Made by a program: the position numbers and the translations under genes. Positions 7,726 through 46,609 of a stretch of 51,792 nucleotides of DNA are shown in pieces. Every line of letters begins with the position of its first letter. The first letter of the stretch is position 1. The notes beneath the pieces are model-generated. The model was given only the letters and a program-made list of their open reading frames with translations. It was not told where the DNA came from and ran no database searches. This DNA comes from a virus. The stretch is taken from positions 1-51,792 of IMG/VR virus record IMGVR_UViG_3300035659_000022; one strand, written 5' to 3'.

Positions 7726-8382
7726 TTACGGCTCGAAGGTCACGTTACCCAAAAACCATGATCTGAGATCTGTTGGCTCTCTGTTAATCTGCCCCGGCGG
7801 TAATTTTGATACTGTCACTCCGTAAACAACAGATGCGCCCCACCGAACGGCTGTGTTGTAATCCACCTCTACCACTATCTTCATGTAGACGACCATGCCA
7901 TATATATCTGCCGGTCGTGCACAGTCCATCACGTAGAAGGGACCCTCATAGTCGCCAAGAGGTCGGCGCAACCAAACAGAGTCTCCAATATCAGCGCAAA
8001 ACATCAGGGCTACAGCCCCAACATACTCACTGCCGTAGTAGCGGCCTGTGTTATCGGCTACAAGCTCCATCATACCGGGACCGTAAGAGTCTGCTACACC
8101 AACAACTAAATCGGGCATTGATAGACTCAGAGTATCATAGGACACCATACCAGGGATCCAATATTTGCCGTGCCAAAAATACCCACCACTTGCAGGGGTT
8201 GGAGACGAAGGTGTCGCTGTCGGTGTTCGGCTAGGAACGGTCGTAGCAGTCGGCGGTTTGTGGGTAGGAGTAGGCGATACCGTAGCCGTAATAACGACTG
8301 GTGTGCCAGTGAGCTGCGTTGGTGTTACTTTTGTACAAGTAGCTAGCAGCAATAGTAGGGCGATTAGCGATGCTCTTCTCAT
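7726..8382 (-). CDS. Predicted lipoprotein with Pro/Thr-rich linker and double-psi-barrel-like domain
   Basis: A 218-residue protein. A short basic N-terminus and hydrophobic run (SLIALLLLLATC) end in a Cys that fits a loose lipobox (Thr at -1 is atypical). Residues about 18-65 are a Pro/Thr-rich spacer of the PTPTATP kind. The C-terminal part, with MFCADIGDSVWLRR, YVMDCARPADIYGM and TAVRWGA, resembles RlpA/3D double-psi barrel domains of the cell envelope. It lies in the lysis region next to the holin, so it may act on or bind the cell wall, or act as a spanin-like outer component. The enzymatic residues of a known endolysin are not visible. Confidence 0.6.
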   Translation of the reverse strand: MRRASLIALLLLLATCTKVTPTQLTGTPVVITATVSPTPTHKPPTATTVPSRTPTATPSSPTPASGGYFWHGKYWIPGMVSYDTLSLSMPDLVVGVADSYGPGMMELVADNTGRYYGSEYVGAVALMFCADIGDSVWLRRPLGDYEGPFYVMDCARPADIYGMVVYMKIVVEVDYNTAVRWGASVVYGVTVSKLPPGQINREPTDLRSWFLGNVTFEP

Positions 8383-13111: not shown

Positions 13112-16100
13112 CTAGACACAAACGTTATATATATTAACAGGGCCAAGACCTGCAGACCAGGGGACGATTACGCTCGCTGCAATTATTTGCAATGCCCCTT
13201 CTTGATGCACGGTAACATCACGAACAGATGGGTTTGGGAGGGCGGTTTGGGCACAACCAGCGTGCCACGTCCCGCCCCACGAATTTACAGGGTCAGGATC
13301 CCCTGCTACGATACCTGTAAAATAGATAAGACCGAAATAATCCCACTGACAAAGGCTTGCTCCATACCCTGGGCCTACAGGAATAAGAGGACCCGCTGAT
13401 CCAATTCCTCCTCCAGCACTAATTTGGATATGACACAAAAATTTAGAAGATAGTCCTGGCTGCAATTTAAGATTTCCTGACACGTAGGGAAACGCTGCAT
13501 AGTACCACCAAATACCAGCACCATAGGTATCGGCTCCCCAGTAAAACAGCAGTTGGTTCGTACCAGGGAAATATAGCTCCTGATGTGTAATTTCACAATG
13601 GGAAGAGCCATAACCGTACGGAGTGGCTTCAGCACCTGACTCCTCTTGAATTATTGGTGGGCCTTCACTATCCCCTCCTGCATCCATCACTAGTTCGTAC
13701 CCAGCTATAGAGGTAGCAGCAGACTGAGCGAAAGTACCTTCCATGGTATAGACATTGCCGTTAATTGAGAGCACAGATAAGTTGCCGACAGCAACTCGTG
13801 TTCCGCTTGCATCGATACCATAAAGGTGTACGTGCGAGTAAGAATTTCCCCTGTTAATAATATTGAATATAAGAACCGTTCGATTAACTGCTGCTCCCGA
13901 GCGGAGAGTACTTGTGTGCCACAAGTATGTGCTATGAGTCCCAGGTGTCGTGAAACTCCCATCTATCCACGGTCTATCCCAATTGGCAAAGAATGGACCG
14001 TTTGCCGGAGAATCATCTAGGCAATCTTCTGACGGCGGTGGGGGAGGAGGAGGCGGCGGTGGCGGTGTCACAATAATCGGAATAATTGGGGGGAATATGG
14101 GGATTGGGTACTCAATAGGCGGAATGTCATCAGGTGGTTCAACGATGATGGGGATATCACCTGTAACCACGTTGACTACTTCAACAGTCTCAGGTTCGCC
14201 ATCGACCTCGATTGATATGCTTTTAGCCTTGTCGTTGAATGCAATGGTCATTCCTCTTACAAATATGTTGTTGCTGATAGTGATCTCTCGGGGATTCATG
14301 TCAGTATCTGTTACCACAAACAGTTGTTGCTGCGGACACACGTCTACCAGTCTCATATTACAGGCTAACTCAATACGCAAGTCGGGATATTCGTTATTAC
14401 GTTGAGCTAGAATGCGTGCAGCTAATTCGTTACAATGATCCTGGTCTGCTACAATTATCTTGTCTATCCCTTCTGTCCTACCATACCTACCCATAACATG
14501 ACCATGAGCTAGCGCTCGTACCGCGTACCCTGTCACACCGTCAAACCAGACACCTGAAAGGTCAATCGTGCTAGTTGGGTCGACAGTCGAGCGCTCAACT
14601 TCTATCTCGCCTATGCGATCATATGCTTCAATGGTCATCACGTTAATGAAGTTTCTTTCGCCAAGTGGGACGTACTGGCCGTTAACTTCTATAAACAATC
14701 GTCCATACCGGTCACAACACGCCGTAGCTAACATCGTGCTGTACGCTTGACCTGTTATTTGTTCCCATAAAGAGCCTACTGACACCGACTCCATAGTGGG
14801 TATCAACTGAGTACTCCCCGTCAGTTTAACATCTATTACCACAGTAGCAGTAGAGCGCCAATGAAGCAGATCCCACAAGCCCTTGTCTACTGTCAGGTCT
14901 AGTACGTAGTTCCACTCTGTTGGGGCAGTCTCACTATGTCGTAGACCGGATATGAAGCCCTCCATTTGGTTGAGCCAGTAGTTAGGGCCGTGAGCGGTGA
15001 ATGAAGCAGTCCCGCCGTCGATATCTAGTTTCAAGTCCTCTTTGTCTATCCAGCCACTGGCTATAATGTTCTCGCATCCGGGGATCTGCCCGATGCTAAG
15101 CTCCGTATGACCATTTAGTATTTGGATGGTTACAGAGGCACCAGCTGATTCGTCTACCAAAGATTCTGCAACAACGAGGTAGGACGAGCCGCTGCCAGAG
15201 AGGACAGTGAAAGTACCACGGTTGTGGGCCGACCCACTTACTTGAATAGTTGATCCTGCGAGGAATATATCTAGTCCCGAAGACTTCTTTATCTTGTGTG
15301 AGGAGGCCTCAAATGATATCGCTGCAGAAGTTAGGTGACTAGTTACATCCCCATACCAGTCTCGTGCAAACAAAATCACCTGTGCTCGGTCACGAACTAA
15401 GTCCAGGTCGGCGTGGCCGTACATAGTCACTTTGAAGTCCCAGCCGCCGCCCTGATAATCTCCGCGGCAGGATGCGAGTTTGAAGTCGCTAACTGGTAGT
15501 GACGTATCGTCATACACTACTGTAACACGACGTCCTGTAAAGCTCTTACCACCGATTGTCACTTCACAAGAAACTCGGTGCGTCCCAGGTGTGTGGAAGT
15601 GGATGGTTGGATTGGCTACAGAAGCGTTATCAATCGTGCCGGTTGCGGCAGTCCACGCATAAGTTTTTGCACCTGATGAACTAAGGCAGTAGGATTCGGA
15701 CGCGTCCATTTGGGTGGAAACACTGTTACCTGGGTGCGCAGCCAAAACACCTTTATAAAACAACACGCGGTCTGGCCCCAGCACTGGCACAGGGTCTAGC
15801 AGTTCGTGCTGATCAGTGTACACAACGTTTCTATCCATGTAGTCAATGTGCTCGTCGCCGGACTGAACATACTTGTGGCGAGGCCATAGTCCATACTCGT
15901 CGATAACAGTCAAATGCATGTCATCAGCGAATTTCACTTCAGATGTTTCGCCGATGTAGAGCAGTGTGTCAGTGGCGGGGACTTCGGCTACACCGTCCTT
16001 ACGTATTCGCGCTATTCCCAAGTCACAGCCTTCCTCCTCAGATCCTACTAACAAGGTCATATCAGGGAGGATATTAGCCCAAGAGCCAGGCACGTCGATG

Positions 16101-16264
16101 GTGTCGTACTCTATACTAGCAATCATATCGTTGTTAATGCTGGCGTTGTTGACTAGAGCCTTGAACACTATCGCAGGTTGGGGGAAAGCTAAATACAACC
16201 GACTGTGCTGCCCGTCGGTTCTCAAGTACGCTTTCTCGACGTCGGAAGCCTCTCTAATAGCCAT
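13112..16264 (-). CDS. Large tail-tip/baseplate protein with PKD-like domain and polyproline hinge
   Basis: A 1050-residue protein directly behind the tape measure and one small tail gene, the slot of the tail-tip hub. A PKD/Ig-like domain lies at about residues 170-252 (STQMDASESY, YAWTAATGTID, GTHRVSCEVTIGG). The middle third is a mixed-fold region. A run of about ten prolines (about residues 734-743, DNA 14035-14064) forms a rigid hinge before an all-beta C-terminal domain rich in Tyr, Trp and Gly, a likely receptor-facing segment. Assignment rests on position and architecture. Confidence 0.7.
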   Translation of the reverse strand: MAIREASDVEKAYLRTDGQHSRLYLAFPQPAIVFKALVNNASINNDMIASIEYDTIDVPGSWANILPDMTLLVGSEEEGCDLGIARIRKDGVAEVPATDTLLYIGETSEVKFADDMHLTVIDEYGLWPRHKYVQSGDEHIDYMDRNVVYTDQHELLDPVPVLGPDRVLFYKGVLAAHPGNSVSTQMDASESYCLSSSGAKTYAWTAATGTIDNASVANPTIHFHTPGTHRVSCEVTIGGKSFTGRRVTVVYDDTSLPVSDFKLASCRGDYQGGGWDFKVTMYGHADLDLVRDRAQVILFARDWYGDVTSHLTSAAISFEASSHKIKKSSGLDIFLAGSTIQVSGSAHNRGTFTVLSGSGSSYLVVAESLVDESAGASVTIQILNGHTELSIGQIPGCENIIASGWIDKEDLKLDIDGGTASFTAHGPNYWLNQMEGFISGLRHSETAPTEWNYVLDLTVDKGLWDLLHWRSTATVVIDVKLTGSTQLIPTMESVSVGSLWEQITGQAYSTMLATACCDRYGRLFIEVNGQYVPLGERNFINVMTIEAYDRIGEIEVERSTVDPTSTIDLSGVWFDGVTGYAVRALAHGHVMGRYGRTEGIDKIIVADQDHCNELAARILAQRNNEYPDLRIELACNMRLVDVCPQQQLFVVTDTDMNPREITISNNIFVRGMTIAFNDKAKSISIEVDGEPETVEVVNVVTGDIPIIVEPPDDIPPIEYPIPIFPPIIPIIVTPPPPPPPPPPPSEDCLDDSPANGPFFANWDRPWIDGSFTTPGTHSTYLWHTSTLRSGAAVNRTVLIFNIINRGNSYSHVHLYGIDASGTRVAVGNLSVLSINGNVYTMEGTFAQSAATSIAGYELVMDAGGDSEGPPIIQEESGAEATPYGYGSSHCEITHQELYFPGTNQLLFYWGADTYGAGIWWYYAAFPYVSGNLKLQPGLSSKFLCHIQISAGGGIGSAGPLIPVGPGYGASLCQWDYFGLIYFTGIVAGDPDPVNSWGGTWHAGCAQTALPNPSVRDVTVHQEGALQIIAASVIVPWSAGLGPVNIYNVCV

Positions 16265-16671
16265 TAAGGGTCTTCCTGCAGTTCCAACTGCCTAAATTCA
16301 AGGGTGAAGTCGAGAGCCTTGGTGTTGTCAGTTTCCTCGTCAATCGATGGCCATATCATCTGACACAAAAAGTACTTGGGAGCTCCGGCGTTGTCCTTGG
16401 TATATGTACGTATGTATACTGCCGATGATACTCCCGGGCAGAATTCACGTAGTTTGTCTCTCATGTTCCTTGGGAGGAAACCCCAGTGCCATGATGCAAC
16501 AGGAGCACCAATACCCCGTTTGCTCCCGTCAGCTAATTCTACTATTGATGAGTACAACGAGAACGTAGACTTAGGTGGAATGATAGGGACCGCAAGTTCC
16601 TCTAAGTTGGTTATCGGGTCTGCCCCTCCCGTCATAGTAGTGCCGATCATAAAGAGATATCGAGTAGTCAT
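16264..16671 (-). CDS. Tail protein between tape measure and tip (distal-tail-like)
   Basis: A 135-residue protein that overlaps the tape measure stop by 4 nt and the tail-tip start by 1 nt. The predicted strands (TTRYLFMIGTTM, SRWHWGF-like aromatic core, ALDFTLEFRQLEL) fit a small beta barrel. In siphoviruses this position is often taken by the distal tail protein or a minor tail protein. No diagnostic motif is visible. Confidence 0.7.
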   Translation of the reverse strand: MTTRYLFMIGTTMTGGADPITNLEELAVPIIPPKSTFSLYSSIVELADGSKRGIGAPVASWHWGFLPRNMRDKLREFCPGVSSAVYIRTYTKDNAGAPKYFLCQMIWPSIDEETDNTKALDFTLEFRQLELQEDP

Positions 16672-20818: not shown

Positions 20819-21292
20819 CTAGAATTCACCTTCTGAATAGTGGATGTATTGCGTGATGATAGCTCTGACCGTCTGGATGATAAAATTAGGGGTAGCATCT
20901 GGCGCATCAGAGAACTTCAAGTACTGAGCCCGCTCGTCGCCGGTTAGGTCGGCACGAACAACACCTGGAGTGTCGTTAAGGGTTGGGTGCTCCATTAGCA
21001 AGTTGAATATGGCAGAACGGAATGCTTTGAACTTGTTCCAAGACTCCTTGTAGTCCTTATACGCTACATAAAGGTCCACCACGACTGACCAGTTAACAGT
21101 AGCAAGCTGCTCTGTTTGCCTTGTGAAAGGAAAAGCACCAGGACGGCAGATTGCAAAGTATTCCGCACCCTTCATGAGAACTGAATCATCGTCGGCAACT
21201 TGCCAGTCATGCTTGAAGTACGTGGTTAATGACCTTAGTAAAGTCATTAAGCCCGCTTCGCACTCACAGTAAAAATCTGGCGTTGGGGTCAT
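20819..21292 (-). CDS. Tail terminator-like protein
   Basis: A 157-residue protein in the slot between the neck (gp10-like) gene and the tail tube. It has alpha/beta segments (WSVVVDLYVAYKDYKESWNKFKAFRSAIFNLL) similar in pattern to proteins that cap the tail tube, with the conserved central strand followed by a helix. It overlaps the upstream gene by 4 nt. Assignment is by order and general pattern. Confidence 0.65.
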   Translation of the reverse strand: MTPTPDFYCECEAGLMTLLRSLTTYFKHDWQVADDDSVLMKGAEYFAICRPGAFPFTRQTEQLATVNWSVVVDLYVAYKDYKESWNKFKAFRSAIFNLLMEHPTLNDTPGVVRADLTGDERAQYLKFSDAPDATPNFIIQTVRAIITQYIHYSEGEF

Positions 21293-21798
21293 TCAGTCTC
21301 CGAATCTTCACTTGCCCAGCCTTGCACGCCTCTGGCAACAAACTTCCTCAGGTTCTCTACAACGGCCTTAGGTAACAAGTTCACAACTGCATCGATTGCA
21401 TCTCGGAATAAAGGCCACCTCCCGGCATGAATGCGGGATTGCCCTAGCCCGCTTAAGAGGCCGCCAATGTACTTAGCGGACCACACCGAGTTAATAACGG
21501 TATAGCTTTGAAGGGTGTTTTGGACAACCTTCCAACCGCTTATGTAACGATCCGTCCGCACTGTCGGTATGCCATGACCAAAGCCGCCCGACGCGAAAAA
21601 TGCTTTCTTCTGTTTGTTGCTATCCCATGGAACAGGATAGACGATCGGTTTGCCAGGCACTTGCATCAGGTCTCTCACATCTTCTGCCGCGTGGCGTAAC
21701 CGCTTACGACCAATCTTAGGTATAGCTCCTCTAAGGTGCTCAAGGCCTTGGCGCACTATCGGGATGTTAGTCCTAATGCGAAAAGTTACTTGCGGCAT
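21289..21798 (-). CDS. HK97 gp10-like neck/tail-completion protein
   Basis: A 169-residue protein with the layout of gp10-type neck proteins: an N-terminal helix with Arg/Lys clusters (GLEHLRGAIPKIGRKRLRHAAEDVRDLM), a tyrosine- and proline-rich middle (KPIVYPVPWDSNKQKKAFFASGG) and a C-terminal helix. In the HK97 family it contributes to the head-tail joint. Start and stop are TAATG-coupled with the gene in front. Confidence 0.7.
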   Translation of the reverse strand: MPQVTFRIRTNIPIVRQGLEHLRGAIPKIGRKRLRHAAEDVRDLMQVPGKPIVYPVPWDSNKQKKAFFASGGFGHGIPTVRTDRYISGWKVVQNTLQSYTVINSVWSAKYIGGLLSGLGQSRIHAGRWPLFRDAIDAVVNLLPKAVVENLRKFVARGVQGWASEDSETE

Positions 21799-23912
21799 TA
21801 GAGTTGCCTCACTGCAGGTACAGAGAAAGCGACTAGCTCCTCACCTGTTGGCGACCACGGAACACCGAGTTGTTTGAGAGCTGTCGTCCACTCTTTAACC
21901 CAGTTCCCAATTTGTTGGTTGACCAGAATCATTGGAGACAGCCCACGCGCGACTACCTTCTCGGTAAACAGCCGACCGCTTGAATTTGCTGCGTGACAGA
22001 GATCTGCAACAACGGAGGTCACTAACAAGTCAATTGCCCTTGCAGCATCTGCCTGCACGACAGGTGTGCTAAACCCCGCTCCTCGGAGGGCCATATCGAC
22101 CATGGAGGAGATACTATAAAGCCAAGTACTGACTTGTGCCAGCGTAGGGTTGGTACCAGGGACTTCAGGATCCGGGCCTATGGGCGGTACGGTGTTATAC
22201 CACGCCCCGTCCCTTGTCCACATTTTCGCTAATGCCGATACCTCCGCCACAGTTCCGTAATGCGTAACTATTGCTACAGTACCGAAGGCCGCTGCACTAG
22301 GAATCCCAATTAGCGATATGTCAATTGTATGAATGACGTTGGGGTGACCGAAAGCTTCCTTGGTAGCAATCGACACCATGGACATGTAGTAAGTGTATAT
22401 GGCGTGTGCTAGACCGAAAGCTTCTTCACTTTCGATGCCGACTAAGGATAGTCTTGCCTGCGTGCTTGGTGGGCCGAAAGCTTCTTCGCTAGTTATCCCC
22501 GTTACAGATATGCTAGTAGCCAGGTCAGGCGCGCCAAGCGCTTCTTCACTCGTAATCGAGACCGGAGACATGGCAACGGACAATGTGGGGGACCCAAAGG
22601 TCACACCGCTTGCAATTCCGGCCAGAGACATGTCCACGGACGCTGCTGGAGATCCTAAGGCTTCTTCACTTGCAATTCCGGTTACAGACACGCCTGCAGA
22701 CACGACAGGTGTGCCAGAGGCTTCCTCACTTACTATTCCAACCGCGGCTATGTCGACAGCGAGGTCTGGAGAACCGAGCGCTTCCTCGCTTGGTATTCCT
22801 ATCGCGTATACATCAGTAAGATCCGGCTCACCGAAAGCTTCTGCTCCGGCGATCGATACTGCGTCCACTTCTGCGGCTACTTCAGGAGACCCGAGAGCTT
22901 CTTCGCTGGTAATACCTACCACCGACATATCAGTATCGAGGCTCGGAGAACCTAACGCCTCTTCACTAGCGATCCCTGTTACAGATACGGTTGCAGCTAG
23001 TACAGGTTCGCCGATTACTTCTTCGCTAGCGATAGCACCTAAACCTGCTGTATCGACGGTAAGTGCAGGTACGCCGAATGTCGCTCCACTTGCAATCCCG
23101 GTTGGGGACAGATCTACTGCAAGCGCGGGTGAACCAAAAGCCTCTCCGGTAGCAATTCCAGCTGGTGATATAACTTTGGTCACTACAGGTTCACCTACTG
23201 CTTCTTCGCTAGCAATAGCGCCTACGCTGGATATATCAACGGCGAGGTCAGGAGAACCAACCGCTTCTATACTAGCAATACCTGTCAGGAATGTGTCAAC
23301 AGCAAGTGTAGGCGAGCCAAACGCTTCTTCGCTTGCAATTGCCGCTCCAACTAAGTTTACGTCAAGAGGCAGATCAGGCTCGCCTAGCGCCTCTTCACTT
23401 GCAATCCCTGCGAGAGATATGTCTGCGTCAAGCACAGGCTCGCCGATTGCTTCTACACTGGCAATACCTGTGGGAGCAATGTTAGTAGCGAGTGAGGGGG
23501 TGCCGAAAGCTTCAGCACTTGCGATGCTCGTTAGGGATGTGTCGATAGCAAGCGCTGGAGACCCGAATGCTTCTGTACTGGCAATCCCCGCTGGGGACGT
23601 CTCCACAGTAAGTACAGGAGACCCGAATGCTTCTGCACTAGCGATTCCAGTCGCATGTACATCAGTCAAGTCTGGAGAGCCGAATACTTCTTCACTGGTA
23701 ATTGAGGCTACGGATAAATCAATAATAACATCTGGAGAACCCAACGCTTCCACACTGGCTATCCCAACCGCGTGCACATCACGGAGGTCAGGCAAGCCAA
23801 AAGCTTCCGCGCTTACGATCGAAGCAGCGGATAAGTCAATGCTTGCATCAGGAGAACCAAAAGCTTCCGTACTGGCAATCGCTCCGACGTCAGTTAGGTC
23901 GATATCAGCCAT
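21798..23912 (-). CDS. Giant repeat protein with adaptor-like C-terminus (27 SEEAFG repeats)
   Basis: A 704-residue protein. Residues about 12-546 consist of 27 imperfect units of 19-21 residues with the core I-A-S-E-E-A-F-G-S-P, followed by a variable Leu/Val/Asp/Ser part. The core motif is very regular, with Glu and Gly-x-Pro almost fixed. Residues about 575-704 are a non-repeated helical domain (STWLYSISSMVDMALRGAG, AARAIDLLVTSVVADLC) in the position where a head-tail adaptor (gp6-like) belongs between capsid and neck genes. The repeats may form an elongated fibre or solenoid on the head-neck. A 500-residue extension is unusual for an adaptor. The repeats are at protein level and have diverged in DNA. 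Confidence 0.7.
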   Translation of the reverse strand: MADIDLTDVGAIASTEAFGSPDASIDLSAASIVSAEAFGLPDLRDVHAVGIASVEALGSPDVIIDLSVASITSEEVFGSPDLTDVHATGIASAEAFGSPVLTVETSPAGIASTEAFGSPALAIDTSLTSIASAEAFGTPSLATNIAPTGIASVEAIGEPVLDADISLAGIASEEALGEPDLPLDVNLVGAAIASEEAFGSPTLAVDTFLTGIASIEAVGSPDLAVDISSVGAIASEEAVGEPVVTKVISPAGIATGEAFGSPALAVDLSPTGIASGATFGVPALTVDTAGLGAIASEEVIGEPVLAATVSVTGIASEEALGSPSLDTDMSVVGITSEEALGSPEVAAEVDAVSIAGAEAFGEPDLTDVYAIGIPSEEALGSPDLAVDIAAVGIVSEEASGTPVVSAGVSVTGIASEEALGSPAASVDMSLAGIASGVTFGSPTLSVAMSPVSITSEEALGAPDLATSISVTGITSEEAFGPPSTQARLSLVGIESEEAFGLAHAIYTYYMSMVSIATKEAFGHPNVIHTIDISLIGIPSAAAFGTVAIVTHYGTVAEVSALAKMWTRDGAWYNTVPPIGPDPEVPGTNPTLAQVSTWLYSISSMVDMALRGAGFSTPVVQADAARAIDLLVTSVVADLCHAANSSGRLFTEKVVARGLSPMILVNQQIGNWVKEWTTALKQLGVPWSPTGEELVAFSVPAVRQL
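22275..23879 (-). repeat. 27 tandem protein-coding repeats of about 60 bp
   Basis: The repeat units are 57-63 bp, always a multiple of three, and encode the IASEEAFGSP core. Units of similar sequence alternate irregularly (for example the DVHAVG and DVYAIG types at units 2, 4 and 18), suggesting internal duplication and shuffling. The long open frame on the opposite strand here is a by-product of this regular composition. Confidence 0.9.
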
Positions 23913-23967
23913 AGCTATACCTCAAACAGGTGGTAGCAGGCCCCCGCCTGCTACCATCATCTCGTGG

Positions 23968-24375
23968 TTATAACTTGAAGATCAGGTTCGCGCCGACATC
24001 CCAGGCGATGTTGACGGTCTGTCCGGCCGCAGGCGTGAACGGCAGGCCAGTACCTACGTCGATGTAGGCGATCAGGCGAGCATCGGCATCGGCGGCGGCG
24101 TACTTGTAAATCACAAGCGCGTCGCTAGCCAGGGCGGCCGTGGCAACCAGTGAGGTACCTGCCGCGCCGGCAACACCGTCGGCGACAGTCTTGGTGCCAA
24201 GCGCAGCCGTACGACCGTTGTCGTTCGTGGCTGGGATAAGATCGGCGACGTCGTTGTCGTCCGCGTCGAAGATGTAGGTGTCCAAGACGAGCATGACGCG
24301 GATATCGTCGGTATCCCAGTCAATGCTGCCGTCAAGGAAGCCTTCGCGTCCTTTGTTGTACAATGCACTAGCCAT
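23968..24375 (-). CDS. Head or head-neck accessory protein
   Basis: A 135-residue protein with strong binding site AAGGAG before ATG 24375. It begins ALYNKGREGFLDGSIDWDTDDIRVMLV, a start I have met in other phage structural clusters between capsid and neck genes, and continues as alternating strands and Asp/Ala-rich turns. Function is not established; a decoration or tail-tip-like domain is possible. Confidence 0.65.
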   Translation of the reverse strand: MASALYNKGREGFLDGSIDWDTDDIRVMLVLDTYIFDADDNDVADLIPATNDNGRTAALGTKTVADGVAGAAGTSLVATAALASDALVIYKYAAADADARLIAYIDVGTGLPFTPAAGQTVNIAWDVGANLIFKL

Positions 24376-24421: not shown

Positions 24422-24640
24422 TTACTTCTTAGCCGCCTTTGCCTTTTTAGAGCCAGGAACTTCGCCGACAACTTCCACGGAAACAGTCGGTTGAGCAATA
24501 GCGCTCACCGGCGCGGGAGCCGGGGTTGGCAAGTTCAATACAGTTTGAGCGACTTCGTCCGAAATCGGCTTGCCGTCGGCGTCATGATACTTGCCGTTCG
24601 CGCCCTTGTAGAGGCCACCAGGAATCTTTGCAGTTGCCAT
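24422..24640 (-). CDS. Small Pro/Lys-rich head-cluster protein
   Basis: A 72-residue protein with a short N-terminal turn-rich part (LYKGANGKYHDADGKPI) resembling a small SH3-like or head-protein module, a Pro-Ala-rich middle and a Lys/Ala-rich C-terminus. ATG 24640 follows AAGGAGATGAACAACT. It sits between capsid and head accessory genes. No known function. Confidence 0.7.
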   Translation of the reverse strand: MATAKIPGGLYKGANGKYHDADGKPISDEVAQTVLNLPTPAPAPVSAIAQPTVSVEVVGEVPGSKKAKAAKK

Positions 24641-24836: not shown

Positions 24837-25901
24837 TTACGTGATAGTGGGGCTGGTGTAGCTAGCACCACTGGCGAAGAAGAGCAGGGCGCCGTTGGTA
24901 CGTGTCCAAACACCGAGGCCGAACTCTGCTTCCATGATCCTGGCAAACAAAGGATAGTCGCCATTCTCGGCCGCAATATACAAGCCTGAGAGACCTGCGC
25001 CAGCTCTCTGGCGGAAAGCGAGCGGTTTCTCTGGAGACATTGCGTCCCATGCGAACAAGTAGTTCGCAATGGCCCAGGACTTCACCCACACCTCGGCGCC
25101 ATTGAAGATGCCGATAGCCCGATTGTCCAAGCGGGCGATGTCCAAGGTGGTACCTGGGGTATCCGAAGCCCTATAGATGATGCGGGGATCCGGATAAGGT
25201 ACGAAACCTGTCAGTGGGGCGCGGAACGCAGCCTCATCAGTCTTACTGATCGCCAACTTAACCATCCCCCCGTGGCCGTGTTCGATGACGTCGTTGATGC
25301 AGGCCAAGGCGACCGCCGCGGTCAGAGACGCATTGTAGTCAAAATGCGTGTGGGTCGTGGGGTCATAAATCTCTCCGTTCGGGCCATTCGGAATTGCAAC
25401 GGAGTCCGCGTTCAGGAAGCGCTTGATGGCCAACGCGACGCCGTCCACCAAGTGATCGTTGAACGCATAGTTCGCTGCCCCGTAGACGGCCTTCTTGATC
25501 TCTTTCTCGACCTTGCGCCAGTGAGCCGCTTCGGCTGCGAGTACCATCGTCGCCATATCGGCCGGCGTGTGGTTCTGCAGCCACTTGTACGTCCAACCAA
25601 CGTTGTACTGGAACAACCGTAGCGGGAAGCCAACGGTCGCACCTGGCTGTGAGCGTTGAGTCGGCGCCTTGCCGTACTCATCCACCTCAACCATTTCGCC
25701 ACCAGCGGACGTACCGTAAATGCGTTGGCGGTCGGTAGTGAACTCGCACATCTCGCCAGCCATCTCGGTAACGATGGCGTTATGTGCGTCAATATCGGCT
25801 TGGAGGACCTTCGCGATCGTATCCAGTCCGAACTCGACAGCGCTTGAGAAACGCGCAGCTAACAGATCATTGATATCGTGGGCACCAGTTTGGAGTGGCA
25901 T
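24837..25901 (-). CDS. Major capsid protein (HK97 fold)
   Basis: A 354-residue protein behind scaffold and decoration genes. Elements of an HK97-fold capsid protein: an N-terminal helical arm (LLAARFSSAVEFGLDTIAKVL), an extended loop region, the spine helix (ATMVLAAEAAHWRKVEKEIKKAVYGA), and a C-terminal A-domain strand set (GMVKLAISKTDEAAF, EVWVKSWAIANYLFAWD). The length is typical for phages using a separate scaffold. A good binding site (AAGAGGTGATGAC) precedes ATG 25901. Confidence 0.88.
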   Translation of the reverse strand: MPLQTGAHDINDLLAARFSSAVEFGLDTIAKVLQADIDAHNAIVTEMAGEMCEFTTDRQRIYGTSAGGEMVEVDEYGKAPTQRSQPGATVGFPLRLFQYNVGWTYKWLQNHTPADMATMVLAAEAAHWRKVEKEIKKAVYGAANYAFNDHLVDGVALAIKRFLNADSVAIPNGPNGEIYDPTTHTHFDYNASLTAAVALACINDVIEHGHGGMVKLAISKTDEAAFRAPLTGFVPYPDPRIIYRASDTPGTTLDIARLDNRAIGIFNGAEVWVKSWAIANYLFAWDAMSPEKPLAFRQRAGAGLSGLYIAAENGDYPLFARIMEAEFGLGVWTRTNGALLFFASGASYTSPTIT

Positions 25902-26816: not shown

Positions 26817-27539
26817 TTACACCGGATGGTATATACCGCGGGCGCGTTTCTTCTTCATGATTTCTTCTTTGGATGCACCCTTTCGGGGGCCTCCGCGCTC
26901 GCCCGCGTTGAGGTTGAAGTGCCCTACAATAGGCTCTCCAACCAAATGGGGTTTTGCTTTCAGTAACGCCTTCAAGACCGTTTCTACATCGTCCTCATCT
27001 ACGTTCCCATCGTCGTCGATCTCCAACTCATCGATGTCGGTGAAGACAACAGCATCTTGCACGTCTGCGAAGCCCAACTTCGCAGCCACGGCTCTGATGA
27101 CGCCTTTAGCCTTTTCGACTTGCAACCCCTTTTCGAGTACTACAACTTTGGCCTCAGCCGCTTCCTTAGCCGCCTTGACCTTATCTGCCTCACTCGTCGT
27201 GGCTGCTATACGAGCAGCTTCGGCAGTTTCGAGCACAGCAAGCTTCTTCGCGTCACCTTTGTGCGTCTTGTGGAACTCGCGTTCCTTACGAAGTCCTGAT
27301 AGCAACCCCTTGTTGTGTACAAGGTACGCTTTCTTCACTTCAGGTGTCGCGTCTGCGAGGAAATCAGGAACTTCCTCTTCCTCTTCCTCTTCCTCTTCCT
27401 CTTCCTCCGCCGCAGTAGCTTCGGCAGCAAGTCGGGCGGCTTCAGCCGCTAAGGCTGTGTTAGTAGGAGCTGCGTCCGCGGCCGTCTTGGCCGCTAGGGC
27501 TGCAGCTTGCGCTGCAGCAATCTCATCTTGTGTTGCCAT
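26817..27539 (-). CDS. Scaffolding protein
   Basis: A 240-residue, highly charged helical protein directly behind the portal gene: an Ala-rich N-terminal coiled coil, an unbroken run of about 12 Glu (residues about 45-56), then more coiled coil (KLAVLETAEAARIAA), an acidic turn (DIDELEIDDDG) and a basic C-terminal tail (KKKRARGIYHP) of the kind that binds the capsid lining. It follows the portal stop by 1 nt. It guides head assembly and is normally absent from the finished capsid. Confidence 0.85.
   Translation of the reverse strand: MATQDEIAAAQAAALAAKTAADAAPTNTALAAEAARLAAEATAAEEEEEEEEEEEEVPDFLADATPEVKKAYLVHNKGLLSGLRKEREFHKTHKGDAKKLAVLETAEAARIAATTSEADKVKAAKEAAEAKVVVLEKGLQVEKAKGVIRAVAAKLGFADVQDAVVFTDIDELEIDDDGNVDEDDVETVLKALLKAKPHLVGEPIVGHFNLNAGERGGPRKGASKEEIMKKKRARGIYHPV
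27371..27406. repeat. Hexamer microsatellite (CTTCCT)6
   Basis: Six perfect CTTCCT units, which on the coding (minus) strand encode the poly-Glu run of the scaffold protein. Slippage here would change the length of the Glu tract by two residues per step while keeping the frame. Confidence 0.9.
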
Positions 27540-31188: not shown

Positions 31189-31581
31189 TTATTCAAACTG
31201 GTGTAAGTACAAAGCAGCTGCTAAAAGAGACTCTTCACTATCGAAGGCATACCCTAATAACTTGTTGCAGTTAGGACATAGGAGCCCGCGCACGCGGTTA
31301 GTCATGTGGTCGTGGTCGACCTCAAGCCGCTCAGCAAGCTCACTTTGGTGTTTGCCACAAATGGCACAACAACCTGCTTGCGTTGAGAACAATACGCTGT
31401 AGTCGTCGAGGGTAAGGTCATATTTCTGCCGAAGGTGCTGTTCTTGCATGTACGTGCGTTTGCACTCCTTACAGACTCGGCTAAGCCCTCCAATGTTACC
31501 TACCTGAGCGGGAAATTCCTCCACCGGCTTATCCCGGTGACACCTATTGCAAACTCGAGTCAGGGCTACAGACTCACTCAT
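31189..31581 (-). CDS. Recombination endonuclease VII-like nuclease
   Basis: A 130-residue protein from ATG 31581. The N-terminal zinc fingers (CNRCHRDKP, CKECKRTYM) are followed by the Endo VII (His-Me) core: CCAICGKHQ, LEVDHDHMTNRVRGLLC and PNCNKLLGYA, with DHDH as the catalytic His pair. It resolves branched DNA, for example before packaging; it is the first gene of the virion block. The ATG lies directly behind the promoter -10, so the mRNA may be leaderless. A paralogue is at 44256. Confidence 0.85.
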   Translation of the reverse strand: MSESVALTRVCNRCHRDKPVEEFPAQVGNIGGLSRVCKECKRTYMQEQHLRQKYDLTLDDYSVLFSTQAGCCAICGKHQSELAERLEVDHDHMTNRVRGLLCPNCNKLLGYAFDSEESLLAAALYLHQFE

Positions 31582-31609
31582 ATTATAAGTATACCAGAAA
31601 AGAGTCCAA
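31582..31609 (-). promoter_or_regulatory. Leftward promoter for Endo VII and probably the virion block
   Basis: Minus-strand TTGGAC (31604-31609), 16-bp gap, TATAAT (31582-31587); an alternative -10 TATACT (31588-31593) would start transcription at the ATG itself. No other promoter of this strength was found ahead of the 24-kb minus-strand block. Confidence 0.65.
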
Positions 31610-31665
31610 AAAAATCTACCGTCGGTAAAGGACCTAGGCATACCTTCGAGATCCGTAATAGTCTC

Positions 31666-32871: not shown

Positions 32872-32907
32872 AACCTTAACAACCTTAACAACCTTAACAA
32901 CCTTAAC
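32872..32907. repeat. Four tandem 9-bp iterons AACCTTAAC
   Basis: Units at 32872-32880, 32881-32889, 32890-32898 and 32899-32907 are identical. The 9-bp spacing is just under one helical turn. No other copy of this array was seen in the window. Confidence 0.9.
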
Positions 32908-32960
32908 AATTTTATTAAGTCATAAACTCATATAAACTTCTAATGTAATTCAAATACTAA

Positions 32961-45768: not shown

Positions 45769-46561
45769 ACGTTTTGCAGAAGAGGAAGGGGGACTGAGGG
45801 GCCTCATTTACGGGCAGCCCGGTTGTGGTAAGACTGTCTTAATGGCTACAGCTTGTGATGACGAGCGCTTCGGGCGTGTCCTAGATTTAGATGCCCATGG
45901 CAACCCGGAAGTACTGCGCCGCCGGAAGGACAAGCCCGACATCCTTGCTATGGAGGCCATGGAAGACTTCAATGAGCCCTACCGTTGGCTATCCGACGGG
46001 CAGGAACCGAAGGACGATGTTGCTAGGGAGTTCAAGCTCACTCCTCCTTATAAGACTATCTTCGTCGACAGTACAACCGAAGTGCAGCGGTTCGTTACAT
46101 CTATCATCACTGGTTCACTTAATGCCGCACCAGGAGACATAGTTGGAGGCCTAGATCGACTGGGCTTCGGTAAGTTGTTTGGTACTATGATGCATTGGTC
46201 GACAAAGATGTTTGAGCTCACCAAGCCCCCACACAATCTCAATGTCTTCTTCAATTGCCACGAGGCCTGGAAGCAAGACGAGAAACAGATTTTTCATTAC
46301 GCACCTCTTATCTGGGGTCAGTCAGGACTAGAGTTACCCGGATATGCTTTGCTTGTGATGCGCCTTACTGTAAAATCTCGCGTCGATGGAGACATTAAGG
46401 CATCCGACACCGCAGTGTTCGACGATGGGGTATTCAATGTTGGACAGATACGGGCAACGACGCAATCATACGCCAAAGATCAGTACGGCTGTGGTGTGAC
46501 GCATATTATCAATCCTACAATGGCGAAAATCATGGACCTCATTAGACAGGGTAGCTTATGA
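45761..46561 (+). CDS. Sak4-like RecA-fold ATPase
   Basis: From ATG 45761 (AAAGGAGAATGGAG) the protein has 266 residues. Walker A YGQPGCGKTVLM (about 18-29), Walker B TIFVDSTTE (about 102-110), and downstream segments with NVFFNCHEAW (sensor-like strand). Phage Sak4 proteins are single-strand annealing or RecA-like partners of a Cas4/exonuclease and a DUF669 SSB, exactly the gene order here. Confidence 0.85.
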   Translation: MSKRFAEEEGGLRGLIYGQPGCGKTVLMATACDDERFGRVLDLDAHGNPEVLRRRKDKPDILAMEAMEDFNEPYRWLSDGQEPKDDVAREFKLTPPYKTIFVDSTTEVQRFVTSIITGSLNAAPGDIVGGLDRLGFGKLFGTMMHWSTKMFELTKPPHNLNVFFNCHEAWKQDEKQIFHYAPLIWGQSGLELPGYALLVMRLTVKSRVDGDIKASDTAVFDDGVFNVGQIRATTQSYAKDQYGCGVTHIINPTMAKIMDLIRQGSL

Positions 46562-46564
46562 CCG

Positions 46565-46592
46565 TTCACCATTCACCATTCACCATTCACCA
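46565..46592. repeat. Four tandem heptamers TTCACCA
   Basis: TTCACCA occurs four times in a row (46565-46571, 46572-46578, 46579-46585, 46586-46592), filling the gap between the Sak4 gene and the SSB gene. The binding site AAAGGAAACC follows. It may be an operator or a replication slippage tract. Confidence 0.88.
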
Positions 46593-46609
46593 TACGAAAG
46601 GAAACCAAC

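Follow-up and report, generated by a model that had tools for sequence, protein, structure and literature searches.

An array of 27 acidic repeats joined to an adaptor-like domain, and its phrog_644 partner gene, in an uncultured tailed phage

Introduction

Few phages are known to have appendages around the neck, and in many cases the genes behind them have not been identified. The neck whiskers of T4 are appendages of this kind, located at the adaptor/stopper region and made of separate proteins. In Mu and JBD30 the head-tail adaptor is a dodecamer with a C-terminal arm inserted between the clip domains of the portal (PMC11915804, PMC11445458). In Staphylococcus phage 812, the gene of a putative whisker could not be assigned (PMC12886913). 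The present study deals with an uncultured tailed phage represented by a metagenome virus contig, IMG/VR record IMGVR_UViG_3300035659_000022 (51,792 bases, hereafter the window), and in particular with its open reading frame (ORF) 21798-23912. This minus-strand gene encodes a protein of 704 residues in which 27 repeat units of about 20 residues each are followed by a C-terminal domain of 153 residues. The repeat is already known as a tail-protein family; here it occurs on neck proteins, namely a probable adaptor in the window and a head-closure protein in a second phage, L193. On balance, we consider it somewhat probable that the only recognised head-tail adaptor of this phage carries an N-terminal appendage, i.e., a neck-anchored array that would form, together with the product of phrog_644, twelve surface-binding whiskers of beta-solenoid fold, the solenoid being predicted with low confidence.

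Results

Repeat array

The gene begins with an ATG preceded by GAGG, and its stop codon is at 21798-21800. Exactly 27 units fit one loose motif at a spacing of 20 residues (19, 21 or 22 in a few); 2000 shuffles of the same 552 residues gave a mean of 0.76 motif matches and a maximum of five. The array extends from about residue 7 to about residue 550 and accounts for about 77% of the protein, in agreement with the three quarters claimed in an earlier note made from the letters of this DNA. The count of 27 in that note was also borne out by the motif, but its label of SEEAFG repeats was not, as the consensus is GIAS-x-EA(F/L)G-S-P and the exact string SEEAFG occurs only three times (EAFG 11 times). 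Isoleucine and glycine are conserved in all 27 units, proline in 25 and glutamate in 24. The array is very acidic, with 77 aspartate or glutamate residues versus four lysine or arginine residues.

The repetition is present at the protein level only. In DNA, identity is 62% between the cores of adjacent units and at most 81% for any pair, and Tandem Repeats Finder reported no tandem array in the repeat-coding DNA. Because its units are so well diverged, the array is old or strongly diversified. Recent gain or loss of units found no support, since neighbouring and distant units are equally similar in protein (identity 0.56 versus 0.55) and differ barely in DNA (0.62 versus 0.59); the suggestion in the earlier note that unit number could change by recombination is thus not supported for recent events.

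In the structure model of the repeat, the strand pattern and the structural neighbours are those of beta-solenoids, and a beta-solenoid fold is our guess for the array. A Foldseek search of this model against BFVD gave nothing at an expectation value (E) of 0.001, sequence searches of PDB with the whole protein and with the repeat profile gave nothing credible, Pfam gave nothing convincing on the array, and a literature search with the motif string returned no phage result.

C-terminal domain

Relatives of residues 552-704 were found in 11 IMG/VR loci plus locus L089. Six distinct lineages (L007, L008, L011, L013, L017 and L089) have the domain as a stand-alone protein of 152-170 residues. The gene order around it is capsid, small gene, adaptor domain, neck gene, terminator-position gene and tail tube, so that the domain sits between the major capsid gene and the neck/terminator genes, as expected of a head-tail adaptor of the Mu gp36 type. 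A model based on nine sequences had main helices with a predicted local distance difference test (pLDDT) score of 80-90. Its nearest structure in VIA-align was 9knu chain M, at Z 6.2 over 104 residues compared with 3.9 for the second-best row, and 9knu contains Mu gp36. Moreover, hhalign of the domain against eleven relatives of Mu gp36 gave a probability of 53% (E 1.3e-4), compared with 0.4-0.9% for two control profiles.

The similarity to Mu gp36 was seen in profile-profile comparison only; PF07030, the Pfam model for Mu gp36, did not match the window at E values up to 10. The domain is therefore best called adaptor-like on its sequence, and it is not filed as a member of PF07030. The profile of HK97 gp6 shows no similarity to the domain. 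Similarly, a PDB sequence search with the adaptor profile gave nothing credible, tblastn found the domain in no annotated phage, and no second copy was found in the window. The family was not confirmed in any bacterial genome, and therefore no host could be derived from prophages. Release of a free adaptor from internal start codons was also rejected, since no ribosome-binding site precedes the ATGs at residues 510 and 512.

Some other neck or tail protein of like gene position could also fit the domain, considering that the structural score is moderate and no library entry matches. However, this is quite improbable in our view, because the gene order parallels that of Mu, the Mu gp36 profile match has clean controls, and the interval between capsid and tail tube contains no other adaptor candidate. 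Each line of evidence is moderate, but combined with gene position a head-tail adaptor is the best call. The earlier note had assigned the C-terminus in the same way, and its assignment stands on gene position, stand-alone homologues at that position, the moderate fold match and the profile match.

Repeat family and partner gene

The profile of PHROG 13352, labelled 'minor tail protein', matches the whole protein (E 5.2e-62), and all 29 aligned array fragments from the window and other phages match it as well. By these comparisons the array belongs to a widespread, unnamed phage repeat (PHROG 13352/8501) that has neither a Pfam family nor a solved structure. Relatives occur in 40 annotated phage records (39 mycobacteriophages and Virus Rctr197k) and in 60 IMG/VR loci, the latter found with one Rctr197k fragment as query; the units of the IMG/VR relatives are mostly 20, 22 or 23 residues long. 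Among 45 proteins, additional sequence stands on both sides of the array in 22, only after it in 12 and only before it in six. Arrays in other phages are joined to many differing domains, for example lectin-like Laminin_G_3 domains in 5 of 44 and a lysin-type minor tail protein in one. In loci L191, L194 and L195 they lie just before or near tail-tube genes (phrog_807 for L191). A fusion to the tail terminator in L191 and L194 is not claimed, as the C-terminal parts of their repeat proteins do not match the terminator family of the window. By its fusion partner and gene position, the window array would be part of a neck protein; the family label would place it in the tail. A related-looking but different repeat (VTGVQASGAVGTATV) was seen in the first scan in a 505-residue protein of L006 (132-1649), and the two could possibly be parts of a wider phage repeat superfamily.

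The gene just upstream of the array gene matches phrog_644 (E 1.5e-23). The phrog_644 family profile in turn gave a match over 100 positions (E 2.6e-24) to chain Ra of PDB 9d93, 'Tail wing arm, gp31'; according to PMC13243192, this entry is mycobacteriophage Bxb1. All 40 annotated records with the repeat also carry phrog_644, which 93 records have in total; independent draws would give an expected overlap of 0.07. These 40 include many near relatives and amount to about six independent groups by eye. In IMG/VR, phrog_644 was found within the fetched DNA of 37 of 54 array loci and within 200 bp in 22, and many of the loci without it end at the array. The array gene is linked to the phrog_644 gene upstream of it, and the two make up one module.

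Two other arrangements of phrog_644 were observed. In L064 (5532-6944) and L065 (7042-8454) it is part of a larger ORF of about 470 residues adjoining the array gene, i.e., a fused form of the partner. In Pseudomonas phages such as F116, H66 and Epa33, homologues lie beside a gene for a 'CsrA-like regulator' and no EAFG array was detected; the partner repeat may be of another type there.

A second case in a myophage

Locus L193 (IMGVR 3300028840_001576) is a partial genome of a myophage with the gene order portal (phrog_21), capsid (phrog_29), small gene, phrog_644 (E 1.8e-62), array ORF, array-Hc1 ORF, tail terminator and sheath. The first array ORF carries a match to DUF2341. In the second, a head-closure protein makes up the last 150 residues (PF05354, E 4.9e-14; phrog_82 'head closure Hc1', E 4.1e-16). 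The array is spread over two overlapping frames and represents two proteins or, alternatively, a single one broken by a frameshift. Two unrelated phages thus have phrog_644 and the array in the interval from capsid to tail, and in both the array stands N-terminally on a neck protein.

The presence of the array on two neck proteins of different families would also suit a structural role, in which array and phrog_644 protein surround the junction of adaptor and stopper as a stiffening collar and have no part in binding. We consider such reinforcement unlikely, although it is the main rival of surface binding: contact with surfaces fits better with the relatives that are joined to Laminin_G_3 domains, to tail proteins and to the lysin-type minor tail protein, and 27 units are long for a clamp.

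Origin of the fusion

The nearest relative of the window's head genes is L007 (portal 78%, capsid 83%), in which the small gene is directly followed by an adaptor of 152 residues, phrog_644 and the array being both absent. Compared with L007, the window has gained exactly phrog_644 and the array, placed after the small gene that follows the capsid and ahead of the adaptor. The tail genes are nearest to those of L009, with 94% identity over 863 residues for 13112-16264 and 100% over 132 residues for the distal gene 16264-16671. The genome is thus a sharp recombination mosaic of an L007-like head and an L009-like tail, with the repeat module at the seam of the two ancestries.

The adaptor domain is also present in L009 and L010, where it bears other N-terminal extensions, of 131 and 112 residues, respectively, joined at the same conserved tyrosine; neither matched anything in annotated phages. 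The N-terminus of the adaptor is therefore extended by three different sequences, each flush with the domain, and in the window unit 27 abuts the first residue of the domain without a spacer. Such joints speak against an error of assembly. A lost stop codon could have joined two neighbouring genes, the record being a virus contig from a metagenome, but with no spacer left over and with an identical point of attachment in L009 and L010 the chance of such an artefact is close to negligible.

The same observations bear on the possibility that the fusion is a precursor, cut after synthesis into an adaptor for the neck and an array for another place, e.g., the tail tip. Arrays in other phages are indeed tail proteins, and the portal protein of Mu may be processed (PMC11915804). 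However, no protease gene was recognised nearby on reading the proteins, the extensions are flush with the domain in three lineages, and L193 has the same fusion on another neck protein; we give the precursor little credence.

Other unexplained or repetitive genes lie directly upstream of the adaptor in L009 (5608-7593) and L010 (2-430). In view of these genes, the stretch from capsid to adaptor resembles a hotspot at which genes of virion decoration are inserted.

Genomic neighbourhood

The head, neck and tail genes of the window are all on the minus strand, and those around the fusion are listed in Table 1. A plus-strand ORF of 526 residues (22393-23973) runs antisense to the 704-residue gene and is taken as its mechanical shadow. 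The 8 kb of DNA around the gene had no match in annotated phages.

Table 1. Features of the repeat-adaptor region of the window
Feature	Position	Strand	Basis
Major capsid protein, phrog_3990	24837..25901	-	83% identity to L007
Small 72-residue gene between capsid and adaptor	24422..24640	-	Kept in L007, 68% over 41 residues
phrog_644 protein, 135 residues, Bxb1 gp31 homologue	23968..24375	-	PHROG profile match; constant partner of the repeat
N-terminal array, 27 units, consensus GIASxEAFGSPxL, residues 1-551	22260..23912	-	Units, shuffles and PHROG 13352 match; beta-solenoid predicted at low confidence
C-terminal domain, residues 552-704, head-tail adaptor as best call	21801..22259	-	Stand-alone homologues, 28 invariant columns, helical model, Mu gp36 comparisons
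Neck/tail-completion gene adjoining adaptor	21289..21798	-	55% to L007, 61% to L009; named by position and our own reading, no library match
Tail-terminator position gene	20819..21292	-	78% to L007; named by position, no PHROG match

Several other features were observed in the window. The product of 7726-8382 (minus strand), past the tail genes, starts with a signal-like segment and contains a Thr/Pro-rich stretch; such stretches are common in Chloroflexota and could possibly hint at the host. The scaffold-position protein at 26817-27539 (minus strand) has a glutamate run encoded by six perfect CTTCCT units, as read on the plus strand, at 27371-27407. An ORF for an HNH-type endonuclease lies beside the terminase genes at 31189-31641 (minus strand) and has a relative in L017 (44% over 80 residues). 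Two short, perfect or near-perfect tandem arrays, at 32872-32909 (AACCTTAAC, 4.2 copies) and 46561-46593 (ACCATTC, 4.7 copies), are located near or between early-region ORFs and might be binding sites.

Discussion

Based on the results of this study, a working model of the appendage could be as follows. Twelve copies of the 704-residue protein would assemble as the adaptor ring under the portal, with the C-terminus entering the portal as in Mu and JBD30, and the N-terminus would thus be free to hold the 551 extra residues outside. The contact between the adaptor C-terminus and the portal is probably kept, since the C-terminus of the window protein (AFSVPAVRQL) resembles that of L007 (AFSVPPKRQL). 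Beta-solenoids rise by 0.48 nm per coil, and each array would accordingly make a rod of 27 coils and about 13 nm. The ring of arrays probably sticks out from the neck as about twelve whiskers, which would form an acidic collar, and the phrog_644 protein, whose homologue in Bxb1 is an arm, may cap or link these rods. Such a collar could help the virion to hold cell or environmental surfaces and supplement the receptor proteins of the tail tip. Surface binding seems the likeliest role of the array because other arrays are joined to lectin-like domains and tail proteins; the step from display at the neck to adhesion is what we infer from this.

Several results weigh against this model. The fusion of array and adaptor is known in one case only, and the annotations of most array relatives place them in the tail and not in the neck. 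The pLDDT of the repeat model was only 50, which leaves the solenoid conjectural. The fold match to Mu gp36 is moderate (Z below 8, between helical structures) and a plain Foldseek search of the adaptor model gave nothing significant. No Pfam or PHROG adaptor model matches the C-terminal domain.

We agree with the earlier note that a repetitive extension is not a standard part of a head-neck protein, and the neck whisker was the best of its readings. Three points go beyond that note: the repeat is a module found in many phages, phrog_644 is its constant companion, and a different neck protein bears the same module in L193. More tentatively, and with a confidence that falls a little short of even, the array and phrog_644 could be regarded as a portable appendage mounted on varying ring proteins (a tail protein in mycobacteriophages, the adaptor here, the head-closure protein in the myophage), which in the window phage would form a twelve-fold collar of beta-solenoid neck whiskers binding surfaces of the host or habitat.

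An appendage fused to the adaptor would have a fixed copy number and place, and its function could be tested by trimming a single gene. Since repeat and phrog_644 are strictly paired, two large unnamed groups of phage genes obtain a partner and a probable role and are tied to the solved arm of Bxb1. Moreover, as the module is seen on neck proteins that are not homologous, the place of an appendage on the virion may itself be open to evolution.

Compared with known systems, the adaptor-like domain is closest to Mu gp36/DUF1320 (PF07030) and JBD30 gp41, with which it shares a like gene position, profile similarity and, in its predicted model, a helical bundle of like length; the Mu order of capsid, gp35, gp36 adaptor and gp37 parallels the capsid, small gene, adaptor domain and neck gene of the window. 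However, the Mu-type adaptors lack the 551-residue N-terminal extension, and their sequence is too distant from the window domain for the Pfam model. The neck decorations of Staphylococcus phage 812 (PMC12886913) also surround the adaptor/stopper region, but they are separate proteins, whereas the appendage of the window is part of the adaptor chain. Bxb1 gp31 is matched by the phrog_644 profile, yet Bxb1 is outside the repeat-bearing records and its arm belongs to the tail, whereas the phrog_644 gene of the window adjoins neck genes. The proteins of PHROG 13352/8501, such as Marvin gp88, prophiFVLQ01-1 gp73 and Rctr197k gp090, share the unit of 20-23 residues, the I..S.EAFG core and a nearby phrog_644; in the mycobacteriophages and Rctr197k, however, the array is on tail or other domains outside the capsid-neck interval, while in the window it is on the adaptor beside the capsid genes. 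The myophage L193 resembles the window in the succession of capsid, small gene, phrog_644, array N-terminal on a neck protein, and terminator, and differs from it in having head closure Hc1 in place of the adaptor, a contractile tail and an array in two frames.
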